Positions 45,004 to 61,838 of a stretch of 64,000 nucleotides of DNA are shown here, in pieces. Made by a program: the position numbers and the translations under genes. The DNA is from Comamonadaceae bacterium OTU4NAUVB1 (GTDB lineage Bacteria; Pseudomonadota; Gammaproteobacteria; Burkholderiales; Burkholderiaceae_C): assembly GCA_024372625.1 (NCBI GenBank), contig CP099605.1, positions 1,798,001 to 1,862,000 of the forward strand, in the 5' to 3' direction. Each line of letters opens with the position of its first letter. The stretch's first letter is position 1. Under the pieces are notes generated by a model, which was not told the origin of the DNA, did no database searches, and worked only from the letters and a program-made list of their open reading frames with translations.

Positions 45004-46035
45004 ATGAGCGCACGTGACCTGACGCTGCCCCCACTGCGCATCGAGCGGTTGTCGCTGGACGACGGCCTCGCCCTGTCGGCCGGTGGCGCGGCGCCTTTCG
45101 GCGGACTGGGCTACGGCACGCCCGACGACCTGCCCTGGATGCCGATGGTGAACGCCCGGGTGCTGTCCGAGCGGGGACCGATGGCCGACATCTGGCACGC
45201 CGAGCGCGCGGTGCGCTCGGGCATGACCGGCGTGGTGCGCTGGCGCACCGACGGCCACTGGGTGCTGGGGGCCATCGACCTCGACGAATCGGACGGGCAC
45301 CCGGGCCTCGCGCACCTGTCGCAACTCGCCTACCGCGACCTGTTCAGGACGCTGCAGGACACCGGCTGCCCGCACCTGCAGCGCATCTGGAACTACCTGC
45401 CCCAGATCAACGGGGACGGCGGCGGGATGGAGCGTTATCGCCAGTTCAACATGGGTCGCCAGCAGGCCTTCCTCGACGCCGGCCAGGCCGCGTTCGACGG
45501 TGCCCCGGCAGCCTGCGCGCTGGGCATCCGCCAGGGCGCGCTGTGCGTGCGCTTCCTCGCCGGCCCGGTCGCGCCGGTGCCGGTGGAAAACCCGCGCCAG
45601 GTCTCGGCCTACCGCTACCCGGAGACCTACGGCCCGCGCGCGCCCACCTTCTCGCGCGCCGCCCTCGCCGCGCTCGGTGGCGGCGATGTCGCGCTGTTCA
45701 TCTCCGGCACCGCCAGCATCGTCGGCCACGAGACCGTGCACCCGGGGGACGTGCGCGCGCAGACGCACGAGACGCTGCGCAACCTCGCGGCCGTGATCGC
45801 CGCGGCCAACGTCCGCACCAGCGCCGTCTTCGAGCGGTCGCGGCTGGAGGCCGTGGTGTACGTGCGCCACGTGGCGGACGCACCGGTGGTGCGGGAGGTA
45901 CTGGACGAGGTCCTGGGTGCCGGCGCGCACACCGTGCGCCACGCCGTCTACCTCGAGGCCGACATCTGTCGCCAGGACCTCCTCGTGGAGATCGAGGCGC
46001 ATGCCACCGCGCCCGGGACGCTGGGCGCCCCATGA
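45004..46035 (+). CDS. Chorismatase (XanB2/FkbO/Hyg5 family), hydroxybenzoate starter supply
   Basis: A 343-residue chorismatase. Family blocks are RIWNYLPQIN, GMERYRQFNMGRQQAF, VENPRQVSAYRYPETYGP, SGTASIVGHETVHPGDV and, near the end, LEADICRQDLLVEIEA. The family removes pyruvate from chorismate; XanB2 gives 3- and 4-hydroxybenzoate for xanthomonadin and ubiquinone. The Cys in DICRQ may mark the 3-hydroxybenzoate-forming subtype, but this needs alignment. The start is fixed by GGAG eight bases upstream and by overlap with a seven-codon leader frame. It is often annotated as a pteridine-dependent deoxygenase. It heads the plus arm. Confidence 0.88.
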   Translation: MSARDLTLPPLRIERLSLDDGLALSAGGAAPFGGLGYGTPDDLPWMPMVNARVLSERGPMADIWHAERAVRSGMTGVVRWRTDGHWVLGAIDLDESDGHPGLAHLSQLAYRDLFRTLQDTGCPHLQRIWNYLPQINGDGGGMERYRQFNMGRQQAFLDAGQAAFDGAPAACALGIRQGALCVRFLAGPVAPVPVENPRQVSAYRYPETYGPRAPTFSRAALAALGGGDVALFISGTASIVGHETVHPGDVRAQTHETLRNLAAVIAAANVRTSAVFERSRLEAVVYVRHVADAPVVREVLDEVLGAGAHTVRHAVYLEADICRQDLLVEIEAHATAPGTLGAP

Positions 46036-46084
46036 CCGGGGAACGCGACCGCGCGCCCGCGCCGCGACGCGGCGGCGCGTCGCG

Positions 46085-46891
46085 ATGACGCACCTGCCCG
46101 GCGCGCTGCGCCAGGCGGCCCGGCTGCTGCTGGCGGTGCCGCTCTATGTGCTGCTGTCGGTCCTGGGCGTCGCGTCGCTGGGATGGAATCTGGTCGCCCT
46201 GGTCCTGCGCCCGCTGCTCTCGCCCGAGCGCGGACGAGCGGTCGGGCGCTGGACGATCGCCTTCGCCTACCGCGTCTTCTGGGCCACCGCCTCCGCCTGC
46301 GGGATGATGCGCATCGACACGGGCTGCCTCGACGCCCTCCGCGAGGAGCGCGGACTGATCCTCGCGGCCAACCACCCCACCATGCTCGATGCCCTGCTGA
46401 TGGTGGCACGGCTGCCGCGCAGCGCCTGCATCATGAAGGCCGGACTGACGAGGAACGTCTTCATCGGCGCCGGCGCGCGCCTGGCGCACTACATCAGCAA
46501 CGACTCGGCCCACAGCATGGTGCGGCTGGCCGTGGAGGACCTGCGCCGCGGCGGCCAGCTGGTCATCTTTCCGGAGGCCACGCGCACCGTCGAGTCGCCG
46601 CTCAACCCCTTCCGCCCCGGTCTCACCCTGATCGCCAAGCTGGCGCAGGCGCCGATCCAGACCGTCTTCATCGAGACCGACTCGCCCTACCTCGGCAAGG
46701 GCTGGCCGCTGTGGCGCGTGCCGCCGCTGCCGTTGGTCTTCACGCTGCGCCTCGGCCAGCGCTTCGCACCGGCGCAGGACAGCGCGGCACTGCTGCAGCA
46801 GGTCGAACACCATTTCCGCCACACCATGGAGCCGCGCTCCCCCGAAGCGCTACCCGAATGCCAGCCCCTTCGCGCACCCACCTCGTCCTGA
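46085..46891 (+). CDS. 1-acylglycerol-3-phosphate O-acyltransferase-like protein
   Basis: A 268-residue PlsC-type acyltransferase. A hydrophobic N-terminus (about 8-50) anchors it to the membrane. The catalytic HX4D appears as NHPTMLD, and the acyl-acceptor block is VIFPEATRTVES. In aryl polyene clusters such enzymes are thought to join the polyene carboxylic acid to a lipid or glycolipid. It follows the chorismatase by 49 bases and overlaps the glycosyltransferase by 34 bases. Confidence 0.88.
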   Translation: MTHLPGALRQAARLLLAVPLYVLLSVLGVASLGWNLVALVLRPLLSPERGRAVGRWTIAFAYRVFWATASACGMMRIDTGCLDALREERGLILAANHPTMLDALLMVARLPRSACIMKAGLTRNVFIGAGARLAHYISNDSAHSMVRLAVEDLRRGGQLVIFPEATRTVESPLNPFRPGLTLIAKLAQAPIQTVFIETDSPYLGKGWPLWRVPPLPLVFTLRLGQRFAPAQDSAALLQQVEHHFRHTMEPRSPEALPECQPLRAPTSS

Positions 46892-47634
46892 TCCCGAGCT
46901 ACAACACCGGCGAACGTCTCTTCTCGACCGTGCGCGAGGCCCGGGCCCGCTGGAGCCCGGTCTGGGTCGTGGTCGACGGCAGCACCGACGGCACCGGCGA
47001 GCGTCTGCGCGCGCAGGCCGAGGGCGATCCCGGCCTGCGCGTGGTGGCACTGCCGCGGAACCAGGGCAAGGGCGCGGCCGTGCTGCACGGTTTGCGTCTT
47101 GCCCGCGAGGCCGGCTTCACGCATGCGCTCACCATGGACTCCGACGGCCAGCATCCCGCCGCGCTGATTCCCGATTTCATGCGCGCCTCGCAGGCGCGTC
47201 CGGACGTCATGGTGCTCGGCCGGCCGGTCTTCGATGCCAGCGCGCCGCTCCTGCGGGTGCGCGGCCGCAAGGTCTCCAACGGCTGGGCCAACCTGGAGAC
47301 GCTATGGGCCGGCATCGGCGATTCGCTCTACGGCTTTCGGATCTATCCGATTCCGCCGCTGATCCACGTCATGGAACGCCAACCCTGGATGCGCCGCTTC
47401 GACTTCGACCCCGAAGCCGTGGTGCGCCTGGTCTGGCGCGGCGTGAAGCCGCTCAATCTCGACGCGCCGGTCAGGTACCTCAGCGCCGCCGAGGGTGGCG
47501 TCTCCCACTTCGACTACGTGCGCGACAACGTGCTGCTCAGCTGGATGCATGCCCGCCTGATGGCCGAATTCCTGCTGCGGCTGCCCCTGCTCGTGACGCG
47601 GCGGCTGCGCCGCCTGCCGCCGTTCCAGCGTTGA
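46858..47634 (+). CDS. Family 2 glycosyltransferase
   Basis: A 258-residue GT-A glycosyltransferase. HLVLIPSYNTGERLF and VVVDGSTDGTGERL form the nucleotide-binding start, and LTMDSDGQHPA is the DxD-type metal site. It resembles dolichyl-phosphate-mannose-synthase-like enzymes found in aryl polyene clusters. It may glycosylate the lipid or aryl head. The start at 46858 lies inside the end of the acyltransferase gene, implying coupled translation. Confidence 0.88.
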   Translation: MPAPSRTHLVLIPSYNTGERLFSTVREARARWSPVWVVVDGSTDGTGERLRAQAEGDPGLRVVALPRNQGKGAAVLHGLRLAREAGFTHALTMDSDGQHPAALIPDFMRASQARPDVMVLGRPVFDASAPLLRVRGRKVSNGWANLETLWAGIGDSLYGFRIYPIPPLIHVMERQPWMRRFDFDPEAVVRLVWRGVKPLNLDAPVRYLSAAEGGVSHFDYVRDNVLLSWMHARLMAEFLLRLPLLVTRRLRRLPPFQR

Positions 47635-47675
47635 ACGCCGCCCGATCGCCCTGGGCCGCGGAGATCGCCCTGCGC

Positions 47676-48365
47676 ATGCGGCGGCATTTCGTCCTGAAGT
47701 TCATCGGCACCACCGCTTTCACGTGCCTGTTCTTCGTCGGCTATTTCCACCTGCTGCGCCATCCGGGGGGCAGCGTGACGGTCATGCCGCTGACCGTCGT
47801 CGACGGGTGGATCGCGTTTCGTCCCGAGGCGCTCCCCGCCTACCTCTCGCTGTGGCTCTACGTCGGCTTCGGTCCCGGACTGCAGCGCGACCTCGCCGCG
47901 CTGCTGGCATACGCGGCGTGGATCGTCGCGATGTGCGCCACCGGCCTCCTGCTGTTCTATCTCTGGCCGACGGCCATCCCGCCGCCGGACGTCGACGCCT
48001 CGGGCTTTCCCGGCTTCGCGCTGCTCCAGGGCGTGGACGCGGCGGGCAACGCGTGCCCGTCGATGCACGTGGCCGCGGCGATGTTCACGGTGCTGCGCGT
48101 CGCCGAGATCCTGCGCGTCGCGGCGGCCCCGGCGACCCTGCGCGTCCTCAACGTCGCGTGGTTCCTCGCCATCGCCTGGTCGACACTGGCCACCCGCCAG
48201 CACGTCGCGCTCGATGCCCTGGCCGGGGCACTGCTGGGGCTGGCCTTCGCCCTGCCCTCGATGCGCTGGCGGCCCGTCGACGGCGCCCCTGCGCGGCGGC
48301 GGATTCGACGCGTGCCGTCGATATCATCGAATCCGGCTCAAAAAACGGAAGCACACACACCATGA
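47676..48365 (+). CDS. PAP2-family membrane phosphatase
   Basis: About 229 residues, mostly membrane helices. The acid-phosphatase motifs appear as GNACPSMHVAAAMF and ATRQHVALDALAGALLG, with His and Asp in the expected spacing. It resembles inositol-phosphotransferase/PAP2 enzymes and may dephosphorylate a lipid carrier or transfer a head group. GGAG 12 bases before ATG 47676 supports this start; a TTG at 47631 overlapping the previous stop would give 244 residues. Its stop overlaps the ACP start (ATGA). Confidence 0.82.
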   Translation: MRRHFVLKFIGTTAFTCLFFVGYFHLLRHPGGSVTVMPLTVVDGWIAFRPEALPAYLSLWLYVGFGPGLQRDLAALLAYAAWIVAMCATGLLLFYLWPTAIPPPDVDASGFPGFALLQGVDAAGNACPSMHVAAAMFTVLRVAEILRVAAAPATLRVLNVAWFLAIAWSTLATRQHVALDALAGALLGLAFALPSMRWRPVDGAPARRRIRRVPSISSNPAQKTEAHTP

Positions 48366-48748
48366 GTTCGCTGAAGGCATTGCAGGACCTCATCCACGAG
48401 AAATACGACATCCCGATGTCCGAGCTCGATCCCGAAGCATCGATGCGCGACAAGGGCCTCGACTCGCTGGCACTGGCCGAATTCATCTTCGCGGTCGAGG
48501 ACCATTTCCACGTCGTGGTGCCCGACGACGATCCGTCGATCATGTCGCTGGGCGGCCTGGCGACGGTGGTCGACCGGCTGCTGGCCGAGAAGGCCGCGAA
48601 GGGGGCCGCCACGGGGAACGTAACGCCGGCCGGGATCGCGGCGACATCGGACGCATCGGACGCATCGGCGACGACGCGGACCACCGCGCCAGGCGCCGAC
48701 ACCGCCGACGCGGCCGGCGCCGACCCGAAGACGTCGAGCCACGCATGA
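48362..48748 (+). CDS. Acyl carrier protein (first, with C-terminal tail)
   Basis: A 128-residue protein. Residues 1-80 form an ACP domain with DKGLDSLALAEF; Ser35 would carry phosphopantetheine. The last 45 or so residues are an Ala/Ser/Asp/Thr-rich low-complexity tail, unusual for an ACP. It lies directly before the ketosynthase with an ATGA overlap, so both are made together. It probably carries the growing chain, or the aryl starter, in the pathway. Confidence 0.92.
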   Translation: MSSLKALQDLIHEKYDIPMSELDPEASMRDKGLDSLALAEFIFAVEDHFHVVVPDDDPSIMSLGGLATVVDRLLAEKAAKGAATGNVTPAGIAATSDASDASATTRTTAPGADTADAAGADPKTSSHA

Positions 48749-49974
48749 CCCCGCGAGAGGCCGTCGCCGTGACCGGCCTGGGCGTCGCCGCGCCGCATGG
48801 CGACGATCCGGCGCGACTGTTCGAGGCACTGTCACGGGGCGAGTCGGCCCTGCGGCCGGTGTTCGCCGACGAAATGCCCCGGCCCGCCGCCGCCGCGACG
48901 GTCGACTTCGACGTCCGGCGCTGGTTCACCAAGCTTCAACTCCCCGGCGTCGACCGCGTCAGCCAGCTCGCCGTCGCGGCGTCGAGCCTGGCGATGGCCG
49001 ACGCGGGGCTGCCGGCGGGCACGCCGCACGGCCTCGATGCCACGCGCATCGGCGTGTTCGTCGGATGCGGCATGGGCGGCGCCACGGCGCTGGAGACCGC
49101 CTACCGCGGCGGCGCCCGCGTGCCGCCGCTGACCATTCCGGCCTTCATGCCCAACGCGCCCGCCGCCCACGTCGCGCTGCGCCACGGCGTGCACGGCCCG
49201 GTGCTGAGCTACTCGGTGGCGTGCGCCTCGTCGTCCATCGCCATCGCCGAGGCCGCCAAGGCGGTGCGCTGCGGCGATGTCGACCTCGCCATCGCCGGCG
49301 GCGCCGAGGCGCTGATCGTGCCGGGCGTGGTCCTGGCGTGGCAGGCGATGCAGACGCTCGCGGGCTTCGCCCCGGGCGAAGCCGCGCGGGCGGTGCGTCC
49401 GTTCGCCGCCGAGCGCAGCGGCTTCGCGCTCGGCGAGGGCGCGGCGTTCCTGATCCTGGAATCCACCGCGCACGCCGCCGCGCGCGGCGCGCGCCGCTAC
49501 GCCACGCTGGCGGGCTGGGGCGCGAGCTGCGACGCCACCCACCTCACCAAGCCCGACGCGGCCGGCCAGGCCCGCGCCCTGCGCGCGGCGCTCGCCTCGG
49601 CGGGCCTCGCCCCGCGCGACGTCGGCTACTGCAACGCCCACGGCACCGCGACGCGCATCGGCGACGCCGTGGAGGCCGAAGCGCTGGCCGAGGTGTGGGG
49701 CGCCGACATCGACCGTCTGCGCGTGAGTTCCACCAAGGCGCTGCACGGCCACCTGCTGGGGGCGGCCGGCGCGCTGGAGGCGCTGGTCACCGTGTTGGCC
49801 CTGCACCGCGGCGAATTGCCGCCCAACGCCCATTGCGAGACGGTGGACCCGGCGATTCCCCTGAACCTGGTGCGCGACACCGGCCACGCGGCGCCCGGGC
49901 TGCGCGCGGCGATCAGCAGTTCGTTCGCCTTCGGCGGCAGCAATTCGGTGCTGGCCTTCACGCGGCCCGCATGA
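48745..49974 (+). CDS. Beta-ketoacyl-ACP synthase (FabF-like ketosynthase)
   Basis: A 409-residue thiolase-fold enzyme with the complete Cys-His-His triad: Cys160 in [11 protein letters not shown], His in [13 protein letters not shown] and His in [15 protein letters not shown]. It extends the aryl polyene chain by decarboxylative condensation with malonyl-ACP. It is the only ketosynthase in the cluster. The start overlaps the ACP stop and the end overlaps the DUF2272 gene. Confidence 0.92.
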
Positions 49975-51074
49975 GGCGCTCCGGGGCCCGCGCGCCGCGC
50001 CCGCCGGCGACCGGCCGGTGTCGCGGCCACCGCCACCGTGTCATGCCCGCGCCCATGTTCGTGCTCGTGCTCGCGGCCCTGGCGTCCGGCGGCGGCGTGC
50101 CGACGACCGCGCACGCGACGTCGATGCCGTCGCAGTGCCTCGACACGGCGGTGCTGCCCGCCCCGCCTCGCGCGATCGCCATGGCGCGGGCGGCGCTCGA
50201 GGAGCACGCCCGGTTCGGCGGTCCGGCACTGGACGCCGAGGGCCGGATGGTGCGCGCCGGCGTCTCGGAGGCCGAGGACGCCTTTCCGGGACGCCGACGG
50301 ATGCTGGCCGCCGCGCCGTGGGAACGCGTGCTCGGCTACTGGGGGGCGCTCGACGAGGGCGACGGCAGCGCGTCCGGGCTGCCCGACCTGGTGCGCTTCG
50401 GCGCCCTGCGTCCGGCCTCGCGCCGGCTGCTGCGGCAGGCGCTGGACCAGGCCACGGCGCCCCGCCTGCGCGGTCTCGGCGCCGCTCCGGGGCAGGGACT
50501 CGAATCGTCGGAACTGCGCGCGCTCGGCACGGCGCTCGACCGCGTCGCCGTCATGGACACGCCCTGGTCGGCCGCCTTCGTCAGCTGGCTCGCGCGCGAG
50601 GCCGGCTGGGACGCGGACGAGTTCGCGTTCTCCGAGGCGCACGCCGACTATGCCGGCGCCGCGTGGCAGGCCACCGTCGCGGAGGCCGACGGGCGACCCG
50701 TGCGCGCCGCCCTGCGCGCCTGCAACCTGACGTCGACCACGCCGCGCGTCGGCGACCTGGTCTGCCAGACCCGTGGCGCCGGCGCGGCGCTGACGGATTT
50801 CGAGGCGCTGGGCCGGGTACTCGCCGGGCGCGCGACCGGTGGCCAGGCCGTGCCGATGCATTGCGACGTCGTGACCGCCGTGGACGCCACCGGCTTCGAC
50901 GCCGTGGGGGGCAACGTGCTGCAGTCCGTCACGCGGCGTCGGCTGGCGTTCGCGCCGGGCACCGGACGGCTCGATCCGAGCTACCTGCCGGCCGGTTGCG
51001 AGGCCGGGGCGCCGGGCTGCGTCGACCGCCACCTGAGTCGGCAGCCCTGGTCGCTGCTGCTGCAGTGGCGTTGA
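49971..51074 (+). CDS. DUF2272 domain-containing exported protein
   Basis: Up to 367 residues. After an Arg-rich start comes a signal-peptide-like stretch (PMFVLVLAALASGGG ending TTAHA). The domain (about 190-360) contains DTPWSAAFVSWLAREAGW and FSEAHADYAGAAW, the blocks typical of DUF2272, and paired Cys residues. The family has no known function, although the fold resembles NlpC/P60-like or amidase-type proteins. ATG 49971 overlaps the ketosynthase stop; ATG 50043 is an alternative that begins just before the signal. Coupling to the ketosynthase suggests a role in pigment maturation or placement. Confidence 0.7.
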   Translation: MRRSGARAPRPPATGRCRGHRHRVMPAPMFVLVLAALASGGGVPTTAHATSMPSQCLDTAVLPAPPRAIAMARAALEEHARFGGPALDAEGRMVRAGVSEAEDAFPGRRRMLAAAPWERVLGYWGALDEGDGSASGLPDLVRFGALRPASRRLLRQALDQATAPRLRGLGAAPGQGLESSELRALGTALDRVAVMDTPWSAAFVSWLAREAGWDADEFAFSEAHADYAGAAWQATVAEADGRPVRAALRACNLTSTTPRVGDLVCQTRGAGAALTDFEALGRVLAGRATGGQAVPMHCDVVTAVDATGFDAVGGNVLQSVTRRRLAFAPGTGRLDPSYLPAGCEAGAPGCVDRHLSRQPWSLLLQWR

Positions 51075-51169
51075 GGGATCGCGCCGCTTGACCCCGCTGC
51101 CATGGGACTTACCCTGGTACGTAGTAAGCTGAAAGGCTTCATGTATCGAGGTTGAAAGGGGTGGGTGGC

Positions 51170-51943
51170 ATGTCGGTCGTTTGCGAGGCTTGCAAGACGT
51201 CCAATCGCGCCACGGCGATGTTCTGCATCGGCTGCGCGGGTCGCCTGCCCGCGTTCGTCGCGACGGGGCCATCGGCGCTGGAGGCCATGGGCGTGTCGCC
51301 GTCGGCGCCGCGCCGGGAGCGCGCGGTGCCGCGCCGTGAGGCACCGACGCGCACCGGGGCGCCCCTGGGCTGGTGGACCTGCGGCCTGGCGGCGTCGGCG
51401 GTGCTCGCCGCCGCCTTCGCCTGGCAGGTCCTCGGCGGGCGCGCGGACCCGGCCGCTCCGGCCACCGGGACCGTGGCCTCGGCCCGGGCCCAGGCCGAGG
51501 CGCCGCCGTCGCCACGGGAGTGGCTGGACACGGCCGAGGAACTCGTCGAGCGGGTCGCGCCACGCACGGCCGTCGTCGCGCCCGCGCTGACGCCGCTCGT
51601 GCCGGCGCCTCTGGCGCGCAACGACATCGGCCCCGATGCACCGGCGCGCGTCGTCGCGGCCTTCTACGGCGCGCTGGCCGCCGGTGACGGCAAGGCGGCG
51701 GCGGCGGTCGTCACGCCGGCCAAGCGCGACGTCGGCCGTTTCTCCGAGGCGGGCATGACGCAGTTCTACGGCTCGTTCAGCGAGCCGCTGTCGGTGCGTT
51801 CGATCCGCCAGATCGACGCCCACGCGGTGGAGGCGCGCTACACCTACCGCGCCACGCGGACGGTCTGCGAGGGCGTCGCCCTGGTGCGGACCGAGCGGAT
51901 CGCGCAGCAGACGGTGATCCGCAGCATCAGCGCCAACTGCTGA
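51170..51943 (+). CDS. Zinc-ribbon, single-pass membrane protein of unknown function
   Basis: A 257-residue protein. An N-terminal zinc ribbon (CEACKTSNRATAMFCIGC, two CxxC pairs at residues 5-22) is followed by a Pro/Arg-rich linker and one transmembrane helix (about 66-85, WWTCGLAASAVLAAAFAW). The periplasmic C-terminal domain (about 155-257) has a pattern (ARVVAAFYGALAAGDGKAA) that may be NTF2-like; this is inferred. A strong AAGGGG ribosome-binding site precedes ATG 51170. It ends the plus arm, seven bases from the convergent ketoreductase gene. It is not recognised as a standard pigment gene. Confidence 0.7.
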   Translation: MSVVCEACKTSNRATAMFCIGCAGRLPAFVATGPSALEAMGVSPSAPRRERAVPRREAPTRTGAPLGWWTCGLAASAVLAAAFAWQVLGGRADPAAPATGTVASARAQAEAPPSPREWLDTAEELVERVAPRTAVVAPALTPLVPAPLARNDIGPDAPARVVAAFYGALAAGDGKAAAAVVTPAKRDVGRFSEAGMTQFYGSFSEPLSVRSIRQIDAHAVEARYTYRATRTVCEGVALVRTERIAQQTVIRSISANC

Positions 51944-51949
51944 GCCGCC

Positions 51950-52681
51950 TCAGATCATTCCACCGTTGATCGAGATCACCTGGCCGGTGATGTAGGCGGC
52001 GTCGGGACCGGCGAGGAACGCGGTCAGCGCGGCCACCTCGTCGGGCGTGCCGGCGCGCTTCATCGGCACCATCTGCTGGATCACCGCCGGATCGAAGACG
52101 GCATCGGCCATGGGCGAGGCGATGATGCCCGGCGCGATGGCGTTGACCGTGACGCCGCGCGAGGCCACCTCCAGCGACAGCGCCTTGGTCGCGCTGTTGA
52201 GCGCGCCCTTGGCCGCGGCGTAGTTGACCTGGCCGCGGTTGCCGGTGAGCGAGGCGACCGAGGAGATGTTCAGGACGCGGCCCCAGCGCGTGCGCATCAT
52301 CGGCAGCAGCAGCGGCTGGGTGACGCGGAAAAAGCCGTTGAGCGAGACGTCGATCACCTTGTGCCACTGCTCGGGACGCATGCCGGGCATCACGGCGTCG
52401 TCGTGCACACCGGCGTTGTTGACCACGATCTGCACCGGCCCGCCCGCGAGCATGGCGGCGCAGCCGGCGGCCGTCGCCTCGTCGCTGCGCAGGTCGAACA
52501 CGTGGCACTCGGCCGTGCCGCCGTCCGCCCGGATGGCTTCGGCCAGCGCCTCGACCGCGTCCGGGCGGGAACTGGCGTGCAGCAGGAGGGAGGCGCCGTC
52601 GCGGGCGAGGCGTCGGGCGATGGCGGTGCCGAGCGCGCCGCTGGCGCCGGTGACGAGGGCGCGTTTGCCGGTGAGGGTCAT
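51950..52681 (-). CDS. 3-oxoacyl-ACP reductase (FabG-like)
   Basis: A 243-residue short-chain dehydrogenase. The NADP-binding motif is TGASGALGTAIA; NNAG is at the fourth strand; the catalytic Ser and YxxxK are in ISSVASLTGNRGQVNYAAAK. It reduces the beta-keto group after each condensation. It is the last gene of the minus arm, equivalent in role to the cluster-encoded ketoreductase of other aryl polyene clusters. A 61-base gap separates it from the dehydratase. Confidence 0.92.
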   Translation of the reverse strand: MTLTGKRALVTGASGALGTAIARRLARDGASLLLHASSRPDAVEALAEAIRADGGTAECHVFDLRSDEATAAGCAAMLAGGPVQIVVNNAGVHDDAVMPGMRPEQWHKVIDVSLNGFFRVTQPLLLPMMRTRWGRVLNISSVASLTGNRGQVNYAAAKGALNSATKALSLEVASRGVTVNAIAPGIIASPMADAVFDPAVIQQMVPMKRAGTPDEVAALTAFLAGPDAAYITGQVISINGGMI

Positions 52682-52742
52682 GGGTCGGGAGTCCGGTGGA
52701 CGGTGGAGGATGGCCGGTCGCGCGCGCCGCCGTGGCGGCCGC

Positions 52743-53225
52743 TCATTTCGGGGTGGAAGGATCGGGGACGGCCCGGTTGAGCACGACGACGGCCCGGCCT
52801 TCGCCCAGGGAACGGTCGTCCGCGTCCCGGACGACGAACGCGTAGAGGATCTGCTGGGCATCGCCGGAGAGCCGGCGGGCATGGACGTGCAGTTCGCCCG
52901 CGACGTCGTCGAAGCGCGCGACGGCGAAGCGCACGTTGCGCGCGCTCGCCAGGAAGCCCGCCGAGGGCGCCGCGTCCGGCGGCGCGAGCAGGCCGCCGTG
53001 CAGCGCCATCGCCTGCGCCGCGTACTCGATCAGGTTGGACGCCAGCAGGCCGCTGGCCGTGCGCAGCGGGTTGTCGGCATCCGCGTGGCTCGTCGCGGTG
53101 CAGTGGATGGCCTCGGCGTCCCAGGCGCGCAGGCCGTCGAGCAGGCACATCGTGCCGCTGTGGGGGATGCGGCGGGCGATGCCGATGCGGTCGAGGGTCT
53201 GGGGCTGGAACGGGGCGGAGGTCAT
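52743..53225 (-). CDS. 3-hydroxyacyl-ACP dehydratase (hotdog fold, aryl polyene type)
   Basis: A 160-residue hotdog protein with the catalytic His22 in RRIPHSGTMCLLDGL and the helix block ASNLIEYAAQAMALHGG. This is the small dehydratase family associated with aryl polyene clusters, rather than FabZ itself. It dehydrates beta-hydroxyacyl-ACP to keep the double bonds. Its start overlaps the methyltransferase stop (ATGA). Confidence 0.88.
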   Translation of the reverse strand: MTSAPFQPQTLDRIGIARRIPHSGTMCLLDGLRAWDAEAIHCTATSHADADNPLRTASGLLASNLIEYAAQAMALHGGLLAPPDAAPSAGFLASARNVRFAVARFDDVAGELHVHARRLSGDAQQILYAFVVRDADDRSLGEGRAVVVLNRAVPDPSTPK

Positions 53226-54037: not shown

Positions 54038-54888
54038 TCGGAGAGTCCCTGGGTCAAGGTGACGGCGCGCAGGCCGTCGTTGTCGAAGCGTTCGAACAGG
54101 CGCGGCAGCACGTCGAGCACCACCGCCCGGCCCTGCGCGGTGCGCGCGGCGTTGCCGTCGTGCAGCAGCAGGATGTCGCCGGGCGCGAGGTCGCGCGTCA
54201 GGCGCGCCAGCACGCGGCCCGGATCGCGCTCGCGCGTGTCGAAGCCGCGCCGCGTCCAGCTCACCAGCACGAGGCCGAGCCGGTGCAGCACCGGCGCGAG
54301 GAACGGATTGCGCAGCCCGGCCGGCGCCCGGAAGCAGTGCGGCGTCTCGCCGGTGATGCCGGCGAGCATCGCCTGCGCGCGCGCGATCTCGGCCGTGTAG
54401 CGGCGCGGGCCGAGGAACGAGAAGTCGTGGCGATGGCGCGCGGTGTGGTTCTGCACGCTGTGGCCGCGCGCGACGATCTCGCGCGCGAGCCCCGGGTGCG
54501 CGGCGGCGCGTTCGGCGATACAGAAGAAGGTGGCGCGCTGGCCGTGGGCGTCCAGCAGGTCGAGCACGCGCGGCGTGACCTCGGGGTCGGGGCCGTCGTC
54601 GATGGTCAGGGCCACCTCGCGGCGTGCCGCGGCGGCCGCGGGCAGCCGCGTGACGTTGGCCCCCAGCCAGCGGCTGCGCGGCGTGAGGCCGACGCCCGTG
54701 ATGAGGACGTGGTTGAGCGCCACCGCGCCCAGCGCCCACGGCGCCGCGCCCGGCACCCAGGCGGCGGCGCCGAGCGCGGCGACGTGCAGGCCGGCGCTGG
54801 CGGTCACCAGGCGCGGCAGCGGCCAGCGCCCGGGCGGCGGAGCGCCGGCGTGGGCGTCGACGTGGGCGGGGGTCCGGGACGCAGTCAT
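54034..54888 (-). CDS. Polysaccharide deacetylase (NodB-like) membrane protein
   Basis: A 284-residue protein. Two hydrophobic segments (about 25-70) precede a NodB-homology domain with TIDDGPDPEVTPRVLDLL (first Asp pair) and the metal-binding HX3H in QNHTARH. The family removes N-acetyl groups from sugars with a divalent metal. Here it could act on an amino-sugar or lipid head attached to the polyene. It overlaps the methyltransferase and MMPL genes by four bases each. Confidence 0.85.
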   Translation of the reverse strand: MTASRTPAHVDAHAGAPPPGRWPLPRLVTASAGLHVAALGAAAWVPGAAPWALGAVALNHVLITGVGLTPRSRWLGANVTRLPAAAAARREVALTIDDGPDPEVTPRVLDLLDAHGQRATFFCIAERAAAHPGLAREIVARGHSVQNHTARHRHDFSFLGPRRYTAEIARAQAMLAGITGETPHCFRAPAGLRNPFLAPVLHRLGLVLVSWTRRGFDTRERDPGRVLARLTRDLAPGDILLLHDGNAARTAQGRAVVLDVLPRLFERFDNDGLRAVTLTQGLSE

Positions 54889-57341
54889 GGGGCGCCGCGA
54901 GGCAGGGGATCGAGCACCGCGGAGCGGCGCGCGAACGCGGCCGACAACAGCAGCGCCAGCAGCGCGCCCGGCGCCACCACCCGCCCGATGGCCGACAGCG
55001 CCGGGATGTCGGAGATCGCGATCAGCCCGAAGGACACGACGGTGGTCAGGTTGGCCAGCATGAGCGAGGCCAGCGTGTCCTCGTCGGCGCGGCCGGTGAC
55101 CTGCAGCTGGTCGAAGAACAGCGCGTAGTTGGAGCCGACCGCCACGATCAGCAGCAGCCCCACCAGGTGCAGGATGCCCAGCGGCACCTGCAGCGCGGCC
55201 ATGCCGCCGAGCGTCAGCACCACCGCCAGCAGCAGCGGCTGGCACACGGCGACCAGCCGCCTGAGCGAGCGCAGGTAGAGCCCCAACAGCACGACCACCG
55301 CCGTCGCGCCCAGCATCACCTGCACGAAGGCCTCGTGCAGGTAGCGGTCGTACAGGCTGCCCAGTTCGCGGCCGATGTCGACCACCTGGACCTGCGGCAG
55401 CGGCGCCAGCGCGGCGGCGAGCCCGGCGGCGTCGAAGCGCTCGGTGGTGTGCAGGGCGATCAGCGAGGCCCAGCCGCCGCCGGGACGCTCGAACAGCAGC
55501 GCCCGCACGATCGGCGCCAGGGTGCCGTCGGCGAAGTCGGCCCGCGTGACCGGCGGCAGGACGCGTGCGGCCTCGACGGCGGCGACGAAGGGTTCCAGGC
55601 GCGCGGGCGCGAGCGGCAGGTCGGCGGCGGCCTCGGCCAGGCGCGCGCGCAGGGTCGCCGCGTCGGGCAGGCTGGCCAGGCGGTCGCGCTGCAGCGCCTC
55701 GCTCGGCAGCAGGCGCGCGACGCTCTCGTAGCCGGCCAGCCGGCCTTCGGCCACCAGCGCGTCGAGCTTCTCGCCGGCCGCCTCGGTGGCGCGCAGCGCG
55801 GCCTGCACGTCGTCGGCCTGGATCACCACCAGCGTGCCGCCGTCGCTCGCGCCGATGTCCGCGCGCAGGCCGGCGTCGAGGTCCTGCGCGGCCTGCGAGA
55901 TCGGGCTCATCGACGACAGGTTGGCGCGCCACAGGTGGCCGCCCTGCCACACCATCAACCCCACCGCGCCGATGCCCAGCGCCACGAAGACCGGCCGCAG
56001 GCGGGGCAGCAACCGCACGATGGCGCCGGCGAGCTGCGCCATGCGGTGGCGCAGGCCCATCCCGCTGGCACCGTCGGGAGCGAGCATCGGCAGGCCGTGG
56101 CGCGTGACGAAGGCGGCGGCCACGAGGCCGGCGATGGAGAACACGCCGAGCTGCGCCAGCCCCGGGAAGCCCGAGAACAGCAGCGCGGCGAAGCCCACCA
56201 CCGAGGTCAGCAGGCCGAGCCGCACGGTCGGCCAGTTGAGGTCGCGCCAGCGCTGCCAGCCGGTGCCGGGCACGGCCGCGCCGCGCGCCTGGATCAGGTA
56301 GTAGATGGCGTAGTCGACCGTCTCGCCGATCAGCGTGCTGCCGAAACCCATCGTCAGCCCGTGGACCGAGCCGAAGACCAGCGCCACGGCGGCGGTGCCG
56401 GCGACCACGCCGGTGAGCACCGGCAGCACCGCGACGACGAGCGCGCGCGGCGAGGCGAACGCCGCCAGCAGCAGCGCGCCCATCACCAGGGCACCGACCA
56501 CGGCCAAGTGGACGGCCTCGCCCTTGATCTTGTCGCGGCTCTGCACCGAGAACACCGGTGCGCCGCTCAGCAGCAGCCTCGGGGCCGTGGCGGACGCGGT
56601 GCCGGCCGCCGACGCCGCGCCGGTCGTGGCGACGATGCGGTCGAACTCGGCCTGGACGCGCGCCACCGCCGCCGCCTGCGCGTCGATGTCGCTGCCCGAG
56701 GCCCGGGTGGTGGCCAGCAGCAGCGCGCGTGGCGCGGTGCGCGAGACCCACACGCCCTCCTCCGTGCGCGGCGAGGTCGCCGGGATCAGCACCTCGGCCA
56801 CGCGCGCGGTCTCGCCGGTCGGATCGCGCTCGAACAGCGGCCGCATCAGGTTGCCCGCCGGCGTGCCGAGCAGCGAGATGGTGTCGCCGATCGCATCGCG
56901 CAGGCCGTCGGCGGTGAAGCGCGCGGGCGACACGTCCGGCGAGAGCTGGTAGCGGCGGTCGAAGACGAAGGTGCCGGCGTCCTGCCAGTCGGTGGTGTCG
57001 CCGTTCTGCACCTGTTCGTAGAGGCCGCTGGCGCGCATCGCCTTGCCCAGGGCGCGCGAGACGTCCGCGCGCTGTGCCGCGCCGGTGCCGCCCTCCACCG
57101 CCGCCATCAGCGTGCGCGAGGCGACGCCGCTCTGCAGCTGCTCGATCAGCACCCGCTGACGCGCGTCGGGATTGGCCGGCAGGAACGCCGACAGATCGGC
57201 GCTGAAGGGCGTGCGCGCGACGACCGCCGCACCGGCGACCAGGGCCGCCACCCACAGCAGCAGGACGAGGGCGCGGCGCCAGCCGCCCGGGCCCTGGCCG
57301 GACGTCGGGGACGGCACGCGCGAACCGGCCGGCCGGCTCAT
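54885..57341 (-). CDS. MMPL/RND-family exporter
   Basis: An 818-residue membrane protein with two repeated halves, each one helix, a large periplasmic loop and five more helices. SVHGLTMGFGSTLIGETVDYAIYY and VGSNYALFFDQLQVTG, quoted here in part (GFGSTLIGETVDYAIYY; VGSNYALFFDQL), mark the two RND-type helix-4 regions. Such exporters in aryl polyene clusters are thought to move the lipid-linked pigment from the inner membrane, using proton flow. It works with the LolA-like protein encoded just upstream. Confidence 0.9.
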   Translation of the reverse strand: MSRPAGSRVPSPTSGQGPGGWRRALVLLLWVAALVAGAAVVARTPFSADLSAFLPANPDARQRVLIEQLQSGVASRTLMAAVEGGTGAAQRADVSRALGKAMRASGLYEQVQNGDTTDWQDAGTFVFDRRYQLSPDVSPARFTADGLRDAIGDTISLLGTPAGNLMRPLFERDPTGETARVAEVLIPATSPRTEEGVWVSRTAPRALLLATTRASGSDIDAQAAAVARVQAEFDRIVATTGAASAAGTASATAPRLLLSGAPVFSVQSRDKIKGEAVHLAVVGALVMGALLLAAFASPRALVVAVLPVLTGVVAGTAAVALVFGSVHGLTMGFGSTLIGETVDYAIYYLIQARGAAVPGTGWQRWRDLNWPTVRLGLLTSVVGFAALLFSGFPGLAQLGVFSIAGLVAAAFVTRHGLPMLAPDGASGMGLRHRMAQLAGAIVRLLPRLRPVFVALGIGAVGLMVWQGGHLWRANLSSMSPISQAAQDLDAGLRADIGASDGGTLVVIQADDVQAALRATEAAGEKLDALVAEGRLAGYESVARLLPSEALQRDRLASLPDAATLRARLAEAAADLPLAPARLEPFVAAVEAARVLPPVTRADFADGTLAPIVRALLFERPGGGWASLIALHTTERFDAAGLAAALAPLPQVQVVDIGRELGSLYDRYLHEAFVQVMLGATAVVVLLGLYLRSLRRLVAVCQPLLLAVVLTLGGMAALQVPLGILHLVGLLLIVAVGSNYALFFDQLQVTGRADEDTLASLMLANLTTVVSFGLIAISDIPALSAIGRVVAPGALLALLLSAAFARRSAVLDPLPRGAP

Positions 57342-57919
57342 CGGTTGGGCGAGATGGTCATGACCGAGCGGTCGCCGCCGCGGAACTCCATCTCCACGCC
57401 CAGGACCTCGCCACCGCGTCCGCTCAGGCGGAAGCCGTCGACCTGCTGCGCCAGGCGGGCGTCGACCGGCGCGAGGTCGAGCGTCCACTGCGCGGCGCTG
57501 CCGTCCAGCCGGGGCTTGAAGTAGCGCTCCAGCACGGTGGCGTTGCCCGCCAGCGTGGCCCGCATCGCCTCGACCAGGCCCAGCAGCTCGGGCACGCTGT
57601 CGAGGGTCATGCTGCGCGTGCGGCCGCCGCGCGTGAGGGTCAGGTTGTTGCCGTCGACGGCCATGGTCTCGGCGCGCGGCGAGGTCGTGCGGCGCACCAG
57701 CCGGTCGGGCGCGGTGAAGCTCAGGGTGCCGCTGGCGTTGAGCGGGCCGTCGAAGCCGCGCACTTGCCGCTGCTCGACGAAGCGCGCCTCCGCGTGCGTC
57801 TGCCGGGCCAGCAGCGCCATCAGCTCGGGCAGGTCGAAGGCCCACGCCGGGGCCGCCGCCGCCAGCCACAGGAGGCCGGCGACCACGGCGCACCGGGTGC
57901 CGCGGCGCGCGCGCCGCAT
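57338..57919 (-). CDS. LolA-like outer-membrane lipoprotein carrier
   Basis: A 193-residue periplasmic protein: signal peptide to about residue 28 (AAAAPAWA), then the LolA-type fold with FVEQRQVRGFDGPLNASGTL and RLVRRTTSPRAETMAVDGN. LolA relatives in these clusters are thought to shuttle the hydrophobic product from the MMPL exporter to the outer membrane. ATG 57919 gives the best signal peptide. It overlaps the MMPL start (ATGA). Confidence 0.86.
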   Translation of the reverse strand: MRRARRGTRCAVVAGLLWLAAAAPAWAFDLPELMALLARQTHAEARFVEQRQVRGFDGPLNASGTLSFTAPDRLVRRTTSPRAETMAVDGNNLTLTRGGRTRSMTLDSVPELLGLVEAMRATLAGNATVLERYFKPRLDGSAAQWTLDLAPVDARLAQQVDGFRLSGRGGEVLGVEMEFRGGDRSVMTISPNR

Positions 57920-57923
57920 CGGG

Positions 57924-58889
57924 TCAAGCCGCGTCTTCGAGCCAGAAATCATGGAAGTTGAACCAGTTGTAGGGATGGGCGCGGCACAGGGATTCGAGGC
58001 GCGCGACATAGGCTTCGATGGCCGCGCGGATGCGTCGTTCCCGCTCGGCCGGGTCCTTCACGCGTTCGCTGAAGTCGGCCAGCGGCTCGAACGTCACATC
58101 GTAGCGGGCGCCGCCCCGGTGGACGCCGGCCATGAAGAACACCTTGCGCCGCAGCAGCGCCGCGAGCCGGAACGGACCGTCGTTGAAAGCCGCCGTGCGA
58201 CCGAGGAACGGCAGCATCACCGTGCCGCCGCGGTGCTCGCGCGGCGCGGGCACCGACGCCGCGTCGTCGGCCGGCAGCGTGCGGTCGGCCAGCATGCCGC
58301 CCAGGCCGCCCCCGTCGAGCCAGTCGCGCAGCGCCAGCATGGACTGCGGCTGACCCAGCGCGATGACGTGCGGACGCATCGCCGGCACGCTGATCGCGTC
58401 CAGCACGGCGGCGATGCGCCGGGCGTTGCTGGTGAACATCAGCATCGCCACGCGCAACGCCTCCTGATCGGCGCTCTGCTGCCTGCAGGCGCCCAGCGCC
58501 TCGAAACTGCCGAAATGCGCGCCGATCAGGAAGGCGCCGTTTCCGGCGACGGCCTCGGCCTCCACCGGCGGATGACCGGCCACGCGCACGTCGAACAGGT
58601 CGAGCCGTCCGCGCAGCAGGTAGACCCGGTCGAGCAGCGTCGAGGCGAAGGTGTGGAACAGCCGGTAGGCGTCGGTCCAGCCCGCCCCGGGCCCGATGGC
58701 GCGGCCCAGGTAGCGGCGCACGTGCCGGCGCGACGACGGCGCGAAGACCATGAAATACGCGCACACCGGCGGCAGCAGCCAGCGCGTGACGCGGCGCCCG
58801 AAGGTCAGCGCGATCCAGCACATGAAACGCAGCGCGAGCATGTTGCTGCGCTCGGGCCTGCGGGTCCAGTCGCCCGCCACCTGGTCCAT
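57924..58889 (-). CDS. LpxL/HtrB-like lysophospholipid acyltransferase
   Basis: A 321-residue acyltransferase of the lipid A late-acyltransferase family. The HX4E motif appears as GAHFGSFEALG, and an N-terminal membrane helix is at about 20-45. It probably transfers the polyene or a fatty acid to a lipid acceptor. Its start overlaps the ligase stop (TGATG), fixing ATG 58889; the LolA-like gene begins five bases after its end. Confidence 0.88.
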   Translation of the reverse strand: MDQVAGDWTRRPERSNMLALRFMCWIALTFGRRVTRWLLPPVCAYFMVFAPSSRRHVRRYLGRAIGPGAGWTDAYRLFHTFASTLLDRVYLLRGRLDLFDVRVAGHPPVEAEAVAGNGAFLIGAHFGSFEALGACRQQSADQEALRVAMLMFTSNARRIAAVLDAISVPAMRPHVIALGQPQSMLALRDWLDGGGLGGMLADRTLPADDAASVPAPREHRGGTVMLPFLGRTAAFNDGPFRLAALLRRKVFFMAGVHRGGARYDVTFEPLADFSERVKDPAERERRIRAAIEAYVARLESLCRAHPYNWFNFHDFWLEDAA

Positions 58890-60712
58890 CAGCGTGCCTC
58901 TGCCGGCGCCGGTGCCGGCGCGACCCAGCGTCCGCTGGCGGCCACCACCTCGCCCTGGCGGACCTCGAAGCGCACGCCGCGCCCCGCGCCGGCTTCGGGC
59001 AGCAGCTCGACGAGCAGTTCGGCGCCGGGGCGCACCGGCGCGAGGAACTTGACGGCGGCGAGCGCCGGTGTCGGCCCCAGCCGCGCGACCATGGCCGGCA
59101 CGCGCCGCAGGACCTCGCTCACCTCGGCCACCAGCAGCGCGCCGGGCAGCAGCGGCTGGCCCGGGAAATGCCCCGCGAAGGCCGGATGGTCGACCGGCAC
59201 CGTGTGCGTGACGCGCACGGGCGTGTCGTCGCCGGCGAGCTGCGCGAGCGCGAACTCGCGCAGCGCGCGCGTCGTCAGCTTGCCCGTGCCCTCGCGCGGC
59301 AGCGACGCCACGTGGACCACGCGCCGCGGCACGAACACCGACTCGACGCGCTGGCGCAGCGCCGCGACCACCGCCGCCGCGTCCAGCGTCGGCGCCACCA
59401 CGAAGGCCACGGGGCGCACCACGCCGTCGGCCTGCTCGTCGGGCAGCCAGAAGGCGCCGTCTTCCATGCCCGGGATGCTGTTGAGGTGGTAGTTCAGGTG
59501 GCCGAGCGAGCTGCGTTTGCCGGCCACGTGGATCAGGTCGTTGGAACGCCCGAGGAGGCGGAAGCGCCGGTCGTCCAGCAGCTCCAGCACGTCGGCCATC
59601 GGCGTGGGCTCGGGAATGAAGTCGCCTTCGAAGACGAAGCGCTCGGTGGCCCCGTCCCCCGCCGGACCGTCCGGCACGGCCGCCACGGGCTCGGCGCGCA
59701 CGCGGATCTCGCCGAAGTTCTTCCAGACCTCGCTGACCGTGGGTCGCCGCGCGGCGACCTGGCCGGACTCGGTGCTGCCGTAGATCTCCACCAGCACGCC
59801 GCCCAGGGCGTCCTCGGCCTGCGCGGCGAGCTGCGGCGACAGCGGCGCGGTGGCCGACAGGATCAGGTCCACCGGCGGCAGCGCGATGCCCGCCAGCAGC
59901 AAGGTCTTCAGATGGAACGGCGTGGTGACCAGGGCGCGCGGCCGGGGCACCGAGGCCAGCGCCGCGGCGATGTCGGCCGGAAAGAACGGCCGGCCGCTGT
60001 CGAAGGCGGCGCCGCCCAGGAGCGCCAGCAGCGCCGAGGATTCGAGGCCGTAGCTGTGCTGCACCGGCACGGTCGCCACCAGCGTGAGTTCGGCGAGCGA
60101 AGGTCGCCCGATGCACGCCGCGAGACGGCCCACGGCGGCGGCGACGTCGCCGCACAGCGTGGCCCAGCGCTTGGCATGGGGCTGCGGCACGCCGGTGGAG
60201 CCCGACGTCAGCAGGCTGACGGCGTGCAGGTCGCCCGGGACGAGGGGCACCGGCGCGCCGGGCGCGGCGCCCTCGCCCGCGGTCGACACCTTCGCGCCGC
60301 CGGCCCCGGCCGCGCCGAACGGCACCAGCACGCGCGACAGGCCGGGCGTCTGCAGCGACGGCTCGTCGGTCAGCACGACCAGGTCGCCATGGGACTGGCG
60401 AAGGCGCGCGAGCGTGTCGGCGCGGGCGTCGGGGGGCAGCAGGCTGGGCTGGCCGCGCACCAGGGCGGCCCCCAGCGCGACGGCGAAGGCATAGCGGTCG
60501 TTGCACAGGTTGACGACCGGGCCGCCCGCGGGCATGCGCGCGGCGAGACCGGCGGCGAGCCAGTCGACGTCCTTCAGGTAGGTGTGGCCGGTCACGGGCT
60601 CGCCGGCGCACCAGGCCAGGGGCGCATCGAGGTCGCGCACGGCCAGCAGCGGCAGCATCGACGGGAGGGACGGGGAGGAGGAAGAGGAAGGAAGAAGGGA
60701 TTCGTTCGACAT
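58889..60712 (-). CDS. Acyl-AMP ligase fused to a hotdog dehydratase domain
   Basis: A 607-residue fusion. Residues about 20-480 are an ANL-type adenylating domain: P-loop LLTSGSTGVPQPHAKRW, acceptor block EIYGSTESGQVAARR and catalytic Lys in REGTGKLTTRAL. Residues about 500-600 are a FabA/FabZ-like hotdog with HPAFAGHFPGQPLLPGALL (His515). The first part activates the hydroxybenzoate starter and loads it on an ACP, the role shown for XanA2 in Xanthomonas; the second supplies dehydration. The start at 60712 lies 112 bases from the COG4648 gene. Confidence 0.9.
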   Translation of the reverse strand: MSNESLLPSSSSSPSLPSMLPLLAVRDLDAPLAWCAGEPVTGHTYLKDVDWLAAGLAARMPAGGPVVNLCNDRYAFAVALGAALVRGQPSLLPPDARADTLARLRQSHGDLVVLTDEPSLQTPGLSRVLVPFGAAGAGGAKVSTAGEGAAPGAPVPLVPGDLHAVSLLTSGSTGVPQPHAKRWATLCGDVAAAVGRLAACIGRPSLAELTLVATVPVQHSYGLESSALLALLGGAAFDSGRPFFPADIAAALASVPRPRALVTTPFHLKTLLLAGIALPPVDLILSATAPLSPQLAAQAEDALGGVLVEIYGSTESGQVAARRPTVSEVWKNFGEIRVRAEPVAAVPDGPAGDGATERFVFEGDFIPEPTPMADVLELLDDRRFRLLGRSNDLIHVAGKRSSLGHLNYHLNSIPGMEDGAFWLPDEQADGVVRPVAFVVAPTLDAAAVVAALRQRVESVFVPRRVVHVASLPREGTGKLTTRALREFALAQLAGDDTPVRVTHTVPVDHPAFAGHFPGQPLLPGALLVAEVSEVLRRVPAMVARLGPTPALAAVKFLAPVRPGAELLVELLPEAGAGRGVRFEVRQGEVVAASGRWVAPAPAPAEAR

Positions 60713-60824
60713 GGCCGGGCCTCTGCGGGTTCTGCGGGTGCTAGCGCGCTGGACGGAAGGATCTGGGCGGAATGGAAAACGGAGCGTGGCGCACCGGCGC
60801 CCCGAAGGCGTCCGGTCGCCGGGC

Positions 60825-61469
60825 TCAGGGCTTGGCCGGCGGCTCCGCGACCGAGGACACGCCGTAGAACGCGCGCACCGCATCGATCATGCGGGTGCGC
60901 TGGAATTCAGGATGGATGCGATGGCGCACCAGGTGCTCGCCCACGAACAGCACGCCGACCAGGACCGGGCTGACGACGTTGGCCAGCAGCGACCAGGCCG
61001 CGAACGGCAACCACAGGTACACCGCGATCGACGCCACGGCCGTCAGCGCGAAGTAGCCGGTCCAGACCCAGGTGACCTGGCGCGTGTACTCGCGCAGTCC
61101 GGGTTCCATGCGCTGGACGCGGCTCGCGAATTCGCCGATCAGCGACAGCCGGTCCCCGCGCAGCGTGCCGCCGAACCAGCCGCCCAGCACCGCGTTGATG
61201 CTGAAATGCTGCAGCACGTAGAGCCGGTCGGGGTCGCCCACCGCGCCGCGCGCGATCAGCCAGAACGCGATCCCGCCGGCCACGGCCGCCACCGCCACGC
61301 CCAGGCCGCCGAAGCGCGCGCCGCCCAGTCCGAGGGCCGTCAGCCACAGCGGCCCCAGCAGCACCGCCATGGCCCACGGCGCATGCGGATGGAACACCAT
61401 CATCCAGTGCGACACGCCGGCATAGGCGATCCCCGCCAGCAGCATCGAGGCCAGACGCCAGCGCGACAT
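60825..61469 (-). CDS. COG4648-family membrane protein
   Basis: A 214-residue integral membrane protein with about five helices, including a small cytoplasmic loop containing YVLQHFSINAVLGGWFGGTL and FASRVQRMEPGLREYTRQVT. This conserved family accompanies aryl polyene ACP and ligase genes; its function is unknown. It could form part of a membrane assembly site. It lies between the ACP and ligase genes. Confidence 0.85.
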   Translation of the reverse strand: MSRWRLASMLLAGIAYAGVSHWMMVFHPHAPWAMAVLLGPLWLTALGLGGARFGGLGVAVAAVAGGIAFWLIARGAVGDPDRLYVLQHFSINAVLGGWFGGTLRGDRLSLIGEFASRVQRMEPGLREYTRQVTWVWTGYFALTAVASIAVYLWLPFAAWSLLANVVSPVLVGVLFVGEHLVRHRIHPEFQRTRMIDAVRAFYGVSSVAEPPAKP

Positions 61470-61523
61470 GCGTCAGTCCCGCGCCCGCGGGCGCCGACCC
61501 TCCCGCGCGTGCGGACGGGTCAT

Positions 61524-61838
61524 TCAGGCGGTCGCGCCGCGGTGCTGCTCGACGTGGGTGGCGAGCGTGCGCAGCGACTGGAAGATCTGCTGGTTGCGCT
61601 CGTCGTCCGAGCGCAGCTGGAAGCCGTAGCGGCGCGACACCTCGAGCGCCACTTCCAGGATGTCGATCGAATCCAGACCCAGCCCCTCGCCGTAGAGCGG
61701 CGCGTCGGGATCGACGTCGGCGGCGGCGACCTCGAGGTTGAGCGAGTCGACAAGCAGCACGGCGAGCTCGTGCTCCAGGGGCGTCTGCCCGGCGGCGGCA
61801 CCGCCGACGGCGGGAACGGAAGGGGGGATCGATGACAC
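61524..61838 (-). CDS. Acyl carrier protein (second)
   Basis: A 104-residue ACP with the phosphopantetheine site GLGLDSIDILEVAL (Ser57) and an extra N-terminal Pro/Ala segment of about 18 residues. It heads the minus arm, next to the COG4648 and ligase genes, so it is the likely acceptor of the hydroxybenzoate starter. This pairing (ligase plus ACP) matches the XanA2/XanC arrangement. The divergent HerA-like gene begins 104 bases away. Confidence 0.92.
   Translation of the reverse strand: MSSIPPSVPAVGGAAAGQTPLEHELAVLLVDSLNLEVAAADVDPDAPLYGEGLGLDSIDILEVALEVSRRYGFQLRSDDERNQQIFQSLRTLATHVEQHRGATA

Follow-up and report, generated by a model that had tools for sequence, protein, structure and literature searches.

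Xanthomonadin-like clusters have been described in betaproteobacteria, including Variovorax paradoxus S110, together with an assayed chorismatase (PMC3949708), and Variovorax was named among the genomes with a pair of ketosynthase (KS) and chain-length factor (CLF) genes (PMC3691225). A xanthomonadin-like cluster of Variovorax is already in print in these two papers. Arylpolyene clusters were also reported for a Variovorax (PMC10946135), and a pig-like cluster without xanB2 was reported for Ralstonia (PMC9542644). We analyzed a stretch of 64,000 nucleotides (the window, G000:C3:1798001-1862000) from Comamonadaceae bacterium OTU4NAUVB1. Its genome (4.66 Mb, completeness 98.8%) falls in Variovorax. 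Genes for a chorismatase, an acyl carrier protein (ACP), and further aryl polyene functions lie at positions 45004-61838. As judged from sequence comparison, the window very probably holds the larger half of a xanthomonadin-type aryl polyene pathway of a Variovorax species, which would be split over two loci. Pathways of this known type serve the formation of yellow membrane pigments.

The closest described systems include the xanthomonadin-like arc clusters of Azoarcus BH72 and V. paradoxus S110. According to the published table the Azoarcus cluster has the chorismatase, acyltransferases, glycosyltransferase, ketoreductase, dehydratases, methyltransferase, deacetylase, exporter, LolA, AMP-ligase, and ACP in common with the window (PMC3949708). 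Both genomes also have a KS-CLF pair, a halogenase or halogenase-like gene, and two-component genes, and in both the genes lie in two unlinked loci. In BH72, however, KS-CLF, halogenase, chorismatase, and ketoreductase share one locus, whereas the KS-CLF pair and the halogenase-like gene of our genome lie apart (PMC3949708). Unlike the Azoarcus cluster of that table, our genome has no detected DarB-type enzyme but has an additional trio of genes for a PAP2-family protein, an ACP, and a KS. Lysobacter enzymogenes OH11 shares the XanB2-type gene, ACP, ketoreductase, two dehydratases, transport genes, the lack of a thioesterase, and a KS with half-size CLF, but has one 17-gene cluster instead of two loci 1.35 Mb apart (PMC3691225). 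The E. coli ape order ACP-COG4648-ligase-dehydratase-acyltransferase-LolA-RND-dehydratase-reductase was recognizable in the window. E. coli and Xenorhabdus ape clusters differ by their ApeR, thioesterase, and DUF3261 genes, and the E. coli table lists no chorismatase (PMC8253772).

The Lysobacter xanthomonadin-like polyketide synthase requires a KS and a half-size CLF (PMC3691225). No PF13723 CLF was found in the window. The sole PF13723 match of the genome was located at G000:C3:3190186-3190665, 1.35 Mb from the chorismatase, where a half-size CLF gene adjoins a gene for an ApeO-type KS (locus L083, 12817-14876). This remote KS passed the model NF006618 (506 bits, cut-off 407) and clustered with ApeO-position proteins with a support of 1.0 in a KS tree built from 19 sequences, in which the FabF entry was start-trimmed (394 aa). 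The best PDB match of the remote KS was 6qsp_A; 6qsp is ApeO-ApeC. The remote CLF matched 7f28_A (5.9e-6) and 6qsp_B (1.6e-5), both weakly. The caller of open reading frames (ORFs) used for remote loci, relatives, and ApeC-type clusters had 15 window genes as its training set and may truncate gene starts.

We also compared the distribution of these genes in 180 genomes of the family, including the source genome G000. A chorismatase was found in 29 genomes, PF13723 in 55, UbiC in 48, and orthologs of the window KS in 12. By score we divided the PF13723 matches into 12 strong ones (E 2.4e-47 or better), which we call ApeC type, and 43 weaker ones (E 1.8e-31 or worse), which we call xanthomonadin type. 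The xanthomonadin-type CLF was present in 27/29 genomes with chorismatase versus 16/151 without it (Fisher test 9e-19, kinship ignored). UbiC was found in none of these 16 genomes. Where both genes were present, chorismatase and CLF were at most 15 kb apart in 14 of the 27 genomes, more than 100 kb apart on the same contig in five, and on different contigs in eight drafts, which cannot place them. We concluded from these distances that splitting of the locus recurs. Some genomes and loci contained more than one KS-CLF pair: two pairs were seen at L104:15025-17102 and L105:289-2306, a KS-CLF-KS row with a first frame of 721 aa at L108:13904-18125, and four CLF matches in G090.

Of the 12 ApeC-type genomes, none had a chorismatase, which is not significant alone (p 0.22), and 8/12 had UbiC. 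Five of the 12 clusters, hand-picked (L119, L121-L124), were inspected; they shared the core functions, and all five contained an aromatic amino-acid lyase. In the window genome, neither of these two features, a strong-scoring ApeC-type CLF and an in-cluster lyase, was present, and the single PF00221 match was HutH, which passed the HutH cut-off. The chorismatase and lyase routes therefore appear to go with two different CLF types, in the clusters inspected. An earlier note, made from the sequence of this stretch only, had stated that most aryl polyene clusters obtain the starter from an ammonia-lyase and that Xanthomonas uses hydroxybenzoate derived from chorismate. This contrast is in agreement with the five ApeC-type clusters but does not extend to E. 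coli, whose cluster is predicted to use 4-hydroxybenzoate made from chorismate by UbiC (PMC8253772).

In the chorismatase, residues G235, C322, E329, and E331 were invariant in 12 homologs. G235 (SGTAS) and C322 (DICR) align with the Hyg5 chain 5ag3, while FkbO has Ala at both positions. Position 334 of the 5ag3 chain, a Glu, aligns with E329. The alignment was built from Hyg5 and FkbO chains; Nat-hyg5 and XanB2 were outside it, and Gly-164 was not placed. Residues described as type II or catalytic include a Gly, a Cys, and Glu-334 (PMC7170507), and we take G235, C322, and E329 to be the counterparts of these three. Their presence argues for an aromatic product but would fit either of the two types, II and III. 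The Azoarcus counterpart ArcB produced 3-hydroxybenzoate, and arcK and arcT mutants were colorless (PMC3949708). In relatives, a methyltransferase-like gene (by eye, L113:8716-9507) and a gene for a 434-aa flavoenzyme (L104:9416-10720) adjoined the chorismatase gene; neither was seen in the window. Matches of 25-29% to the halogenase-like protein near the chorismatase of relatives were taken as a different flavoenzyme.

From the genes, families, conservation, and co-occurrence observed we infer all chemical steps of the following route. The chorismatase would turn chorismate into 3-hydroxybenzoate and perhaps also 4-hydroxybenzoate, which the AMP-ligase would load onto the ACP encoded at 61524-61838. 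The remote ApeO-type KS and the truncated CLF would elongate it with malonyl units, and full conjugation of the chain would be maintained by the ketoreductase and two dehydratases. The methyltransferase would cap the phenol, with possible halogenation of the ring by the remote halogenase-like enzyme. Attachment of the polyene to an anchor, either a lipid or an amino sugar, would fall to the acyltransferases, glycosyltransferase, and deacetylase, and exporter and LolA would bring the product to the outer membrane. The best solved match of the halogenase-like flavoenzyme was a flavoprotein/dehydrogenase, followed by halogenases, and halogenation is therefore only a guess. Among the best 25 of 30 NCBIfam models, no cut-off was passed by this protein. 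Stretches resembling WxWxIP and FxxPxxSxG, which we take to be halogenase motifs, were readable in its sequence. In G109, the interval from CLF to regulator (L114) had no called halogenase-like gene.

Several points weigh against this assignment. The chorismatase reached 231 bits, below the cut-off of 325 of the NCBIfam FkbO/Hyg5 model TIGR04444, and is therefore a relative rather than a strict member of this model, although it matches PF21168 and solved Hyg5/FkbO-type chains. The product of a chorismatase cannot be accurately predicted from alignment alone (PMC3949708). No thioesterase or DUF3261 family was found among the Pfam and NCBIfam matches of the scanned window proteins, and both dehydratases and the exporter were placed through weak family matches. 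The remote KS-CLF pair is tied to the window through homology and co-occurrence alone, the Fisher values take no account of genome kinship, and two of the 29 chorismatase genomes (G074 and G167, of one genus) had no PF13723 match.

The genes of both loci are listed in Table 1. In the window they form two rows converging at about 51.95 kb.

Table 1. Genes of the window (window positions) and of the remote locus (positions within L083)
Feature	Position	Strand	Evidence
Chorismatase, Hyg5/XanB2 type; putative hydroxybenzoate starter maker	45004..46035	+	PF21168 1.3e-39; PDB 5ag3/5a3k/4bps
Lysophospholipid-acyltransferase-like, ApeD/ArcD counterpart by family	46085..46891	+	PF01553 1.3e-15
Glycosyltransferase family 2	46858..47634	+	PF00535 3.2e-18
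PAP2-family membrane phosphatase or phosphotransferase, trio gene 1	47676..48365	+	PF14378/PF01569; alignment A4; 6/59 loci
ACP, accessory trio	48362..48748	+	PF00550 7e-9; 6/59 loci
KS, accessory trio, FabF-like	48745..49974	+	PF00109/PF02801; KS tree
DUF2272 protein, membership doubtful	50043..51074	+	PF10030 8.1e-22
Zinc-ribbon-like protein, membership doubtful	51170..51943	+	N-terminal CxxC pairs and hydrophobic segment by eye; no Pfam family
Ketoreductase, FabG/ApeQ type	51950..52681	-	PF13561 3.9e-49; FabG NF004200 328.6 bits, cut-off 273
Dehydratase, ApeP-like	52743..53225	-	No Pfam family; 9-homolog profile vs 6qsr_B 1.1e-5
SAM methyltransferase, putative ring O-methylation	53222..54037	-	PF08242 2.3e-9
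Polysaccharide deacetylase, NodB-like	54034..54888	-	PF01522 4.5e-30; TIGR04243 below its cut-off
RND/MMPL-type exporter, ApeM counterpart	54885..57341	-	No Pfam family; HAE3/HpnN models below cut-offs
LolA-like chaperone	57338..57952	-	PF19574 1.4e-26
LpxL-like acyltransferase	57924..58889	-	No Pfam family; weak NCBIfam matches below cut-off
Acyl-AMP ligase with fused FabZ/ApeI-like dehydratase domain	58889..60712	-	PF00501 1.6e-14; fused domain PF07977 3.2e-4 and fabZ 5.1e-6, both below cut-off
Membrane protein, ApeG (COG4648) counterpart by position and weak similarity	60825..61469	-	No Pfam/NCBIfam family; 30-41% to the same-place gene in five ApeC-type clusters
ACP, polyene pathway	61524..61838	-	PF00550 1.3e-7; NF006617 130 bits, cut-off 70
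Remote KS, ApeO-type	L083 12817-14058		
Remote CLF, half-size	L083 14055-14876		
Halogenase-like flavoenzyme	L083 14886-16565		PF04820
Response regulator	L083 16663-17409		
Histidine kinase	L083 17414-18598		

The name COG4648 for ApeG was taken from PMC8253772. All gene types named in the earlier note were present, with confirmed open frames, and the sequence supported its view of a xanthomonadin-type gene set with chorismatase, methyltransferase, and membrane-targeting genes in a betaproteobacterium. The pigment itself, its linkage to a sugar or lipid, and a protective effect against light, as proposed in that note, are putative.

A chorismatase scan gave 73 loci. The 59 close ones (L009-L067) are called Variovorax-type, 57 being titled Variovorax and the other two Xenophilus sp. 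L33 and Burkholderiales bacterium 8X. Some of the 73 loci end early. The gene order was kept across the Variovorax loci. The lysophospholipid-acyltransferase-like and glycosyltransferase genes were each present in 58/59 loci, the remaining locus ending early, and the exporter and the LpxL-like acyltransferase were matched in 32/59 and 31/59. The DUF2272 and zinc-ribbon-like genes between trio and ketoreductase had no tblastn match at 1e-8 in any of the 73 loci, and a role as conserved pathway parts was rejected. The earlier note had spoken of extra genes that set this cluster apart; of such genes, the trio is real but variable in place.

Among other roles for the chorismatase, a main function in ubiquinone synthesis by provision of 4-hydroxybenzoate, with the pigment secondary, is unlikely but has to be considered. 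No PF04345 chorismate lyase was found in the genome, XanB2 supplies both pathways in Xanthomonas (PMC3949708), and G074 and G167 have the chorismatase without PF13723. The absence of PF04345 says little, however, since 108 of the 180 family genomes had neither UbiC nor chorismatase with the models used, and the chorismatase tracks the pigment CLF closely. If ubiquinone is made in these 108 cases, its 4-hydroxybenzoate would have to come from another source or from a divergent UbiC. Mutual exclusion of chorismatase and UbiC, which would have favored a role in ubiquinone synthesis, was not found: 5/29 genomes had both, compared to 7.7 expected (p 0.26). Beside two of three UbiA matches (18 kb of L116 and 15 kb of L117) no UbiC-like gene was recognizable by eye, without a dedicated search. 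A non-pigment use of the chorismatase is possible in G074 and G167.

The PAP2-ACP-KS trio lies between glycosyltransferase and ketoreductase in only 6/59 Variovorax-type loci (L009-L012, L016, L059). Fifty-five loci reached 7 kb past the glycosyltransferase, and 33 of them had the ketoreductase there. In Root473 the trio was located at another place (L112). Orthologs of the window KS were defined by E 1e-120, with no more than 10 candidates considered in each genome; 11 of the 12 genomes with an ortholog had PF13723 (all but G092), and eight had a chorismatase. Wider regions were inspected in nine of the 11 other genomes (all but G062 and G067). The three genes stood together in eight of them, within an aryl polyene cluster in G046, G088, G157, and G176, and with no other pathway gene called nearby in G064, G072, G109, and G159; G092 had ACP and KS without PAP2. 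Outside the family sample, a whole-genome search for the PAP2 protein, under the same limit of 10 candidates, found it in 8/275 other genomes of the class sample. Five of the eight loci lay among aryl polyene genes (L134-L137, L140), L139 and L141 were ambiguous, and no such link was seen at L138. These loci were read by the longest-ORF rule with a minimum of 80 aa, by which short ACP genes and some others were missed; among ORFs of at least 80 aa, a trio-type KS never came up as the top match in the neighborhood of these eight PAP2 genes. At its C-terminus the trio ACP carries some 45 residues that form a tail rich in Ala and Thr; the called homologs have 79-91 aa.

Because of the family of the PAP2 protein and its wider company, the trio is most likely an accessory module that acts on the acyl or lipid part and not on the polyene. 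More tentatively, it may represent a so far undescribed module by which xanthomonadin-type pathways build acyl or lipid parts, in which ACP and KS would make a dedicated fatty chain and PAP2 would ready the lipid acceptor. PAP2 would be the older partner, since aryl polyene clusters outside this family contain it with no trio-type KS seen beside it, and ACP-KS a later addition in this family. Among the literature matches listed, PAP2 was not mentioned with aryl polyenes; the trio may already be drawn in published supplementary gene tables.

The trio KS seems an improbable counterpart of ApeR, which is the third ketosynthase in ape clusters. Both are additional to a KS-CLF pair, and ApeR was described as needed for initiation in vitro, although an E. 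coli apeR mutant still contained the main aryl polyene lipid, plus late intermediates (PMC8253772). The trio KS showed only 31-32% identity to two ApeR-position proteins, which were assigned by position and fell with FabF in the KS tree. The clade of the trio KS (support 0.98) had as its sister a further KS of this genome that is likewise paired with an ACP (support of the sister relation 0.97, 47% identity). The genes for that KS and its ACP lie together with an alpha/beta hydrolase gene at L085:7951-10498 (G000:C3, about 20-22.5 kb), and the adjoining gene row resembles RND efflux by eye.

The earlier note had treated the window KS as the polyene ketosynthase. That it elongates the polyene, alone or with an unrecognized partner, is very unlikely, despite its position in the cluster beside an ACP and its Cys-His-His in invariant columns of alignment A3. 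As seen in the KS tree, it belongs to a clade apart from the ApeO-position, ApeR-position, and housekeeping FabF proteins, and it was below the cut-off in the best 25 of 31 NCBIfam models. It was not at the chorismatase locus in 53/59 Variovorax-type loci (only this place was searched; Root473 has the KS elsewhere), and its orthologs were not found in 21/29 chorismatase genomes (E 1e-120, the 10 best candidates of each genome scored). On the grounds of the KS tree and of the KS-CLF pair 1.35 Mb away in the same genome, we rejected it as a candidate elongase; the window KS is probably not the polyene elongase. Since the KS-CLF pair is far from the window, testing a nearby look-alike could mislead: the earlier proposal that unchanged pigment after ketosynthase loss refutes the pathway would be misleading if aimed at the window KS.

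For Azoarcus BH72 an arcuflavin-like dialkylresorcinol ester was proposed, and such a product is possible in V. paradoxus S110; in our genome it is hardly to be expected. Dialkylresorcinol or resorcinol clusters have been reported for some strains of Variovorax (PMC3949708, PMC10946135), but the single PF08541 gene above cut-off was FabH, as judged by its place beside FabG and FabF. Apart from FabH the genome had no DarB-type enzyme above the cut-off, which makes this product unlikely (one further match was below it; DarA itself was not searched).

For the xanthomonadin-type pathway split over two loci, these results indicate that a reading bound to the cluster can pick the wrong ketosynthase. 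Within one bacterial family, starter supply and CLF type appear to change together. The ACP-KS-PAP2 trio is a recurring module with a testable role, and if our proposal is true, it would give the pigment a tailor-made anchor.

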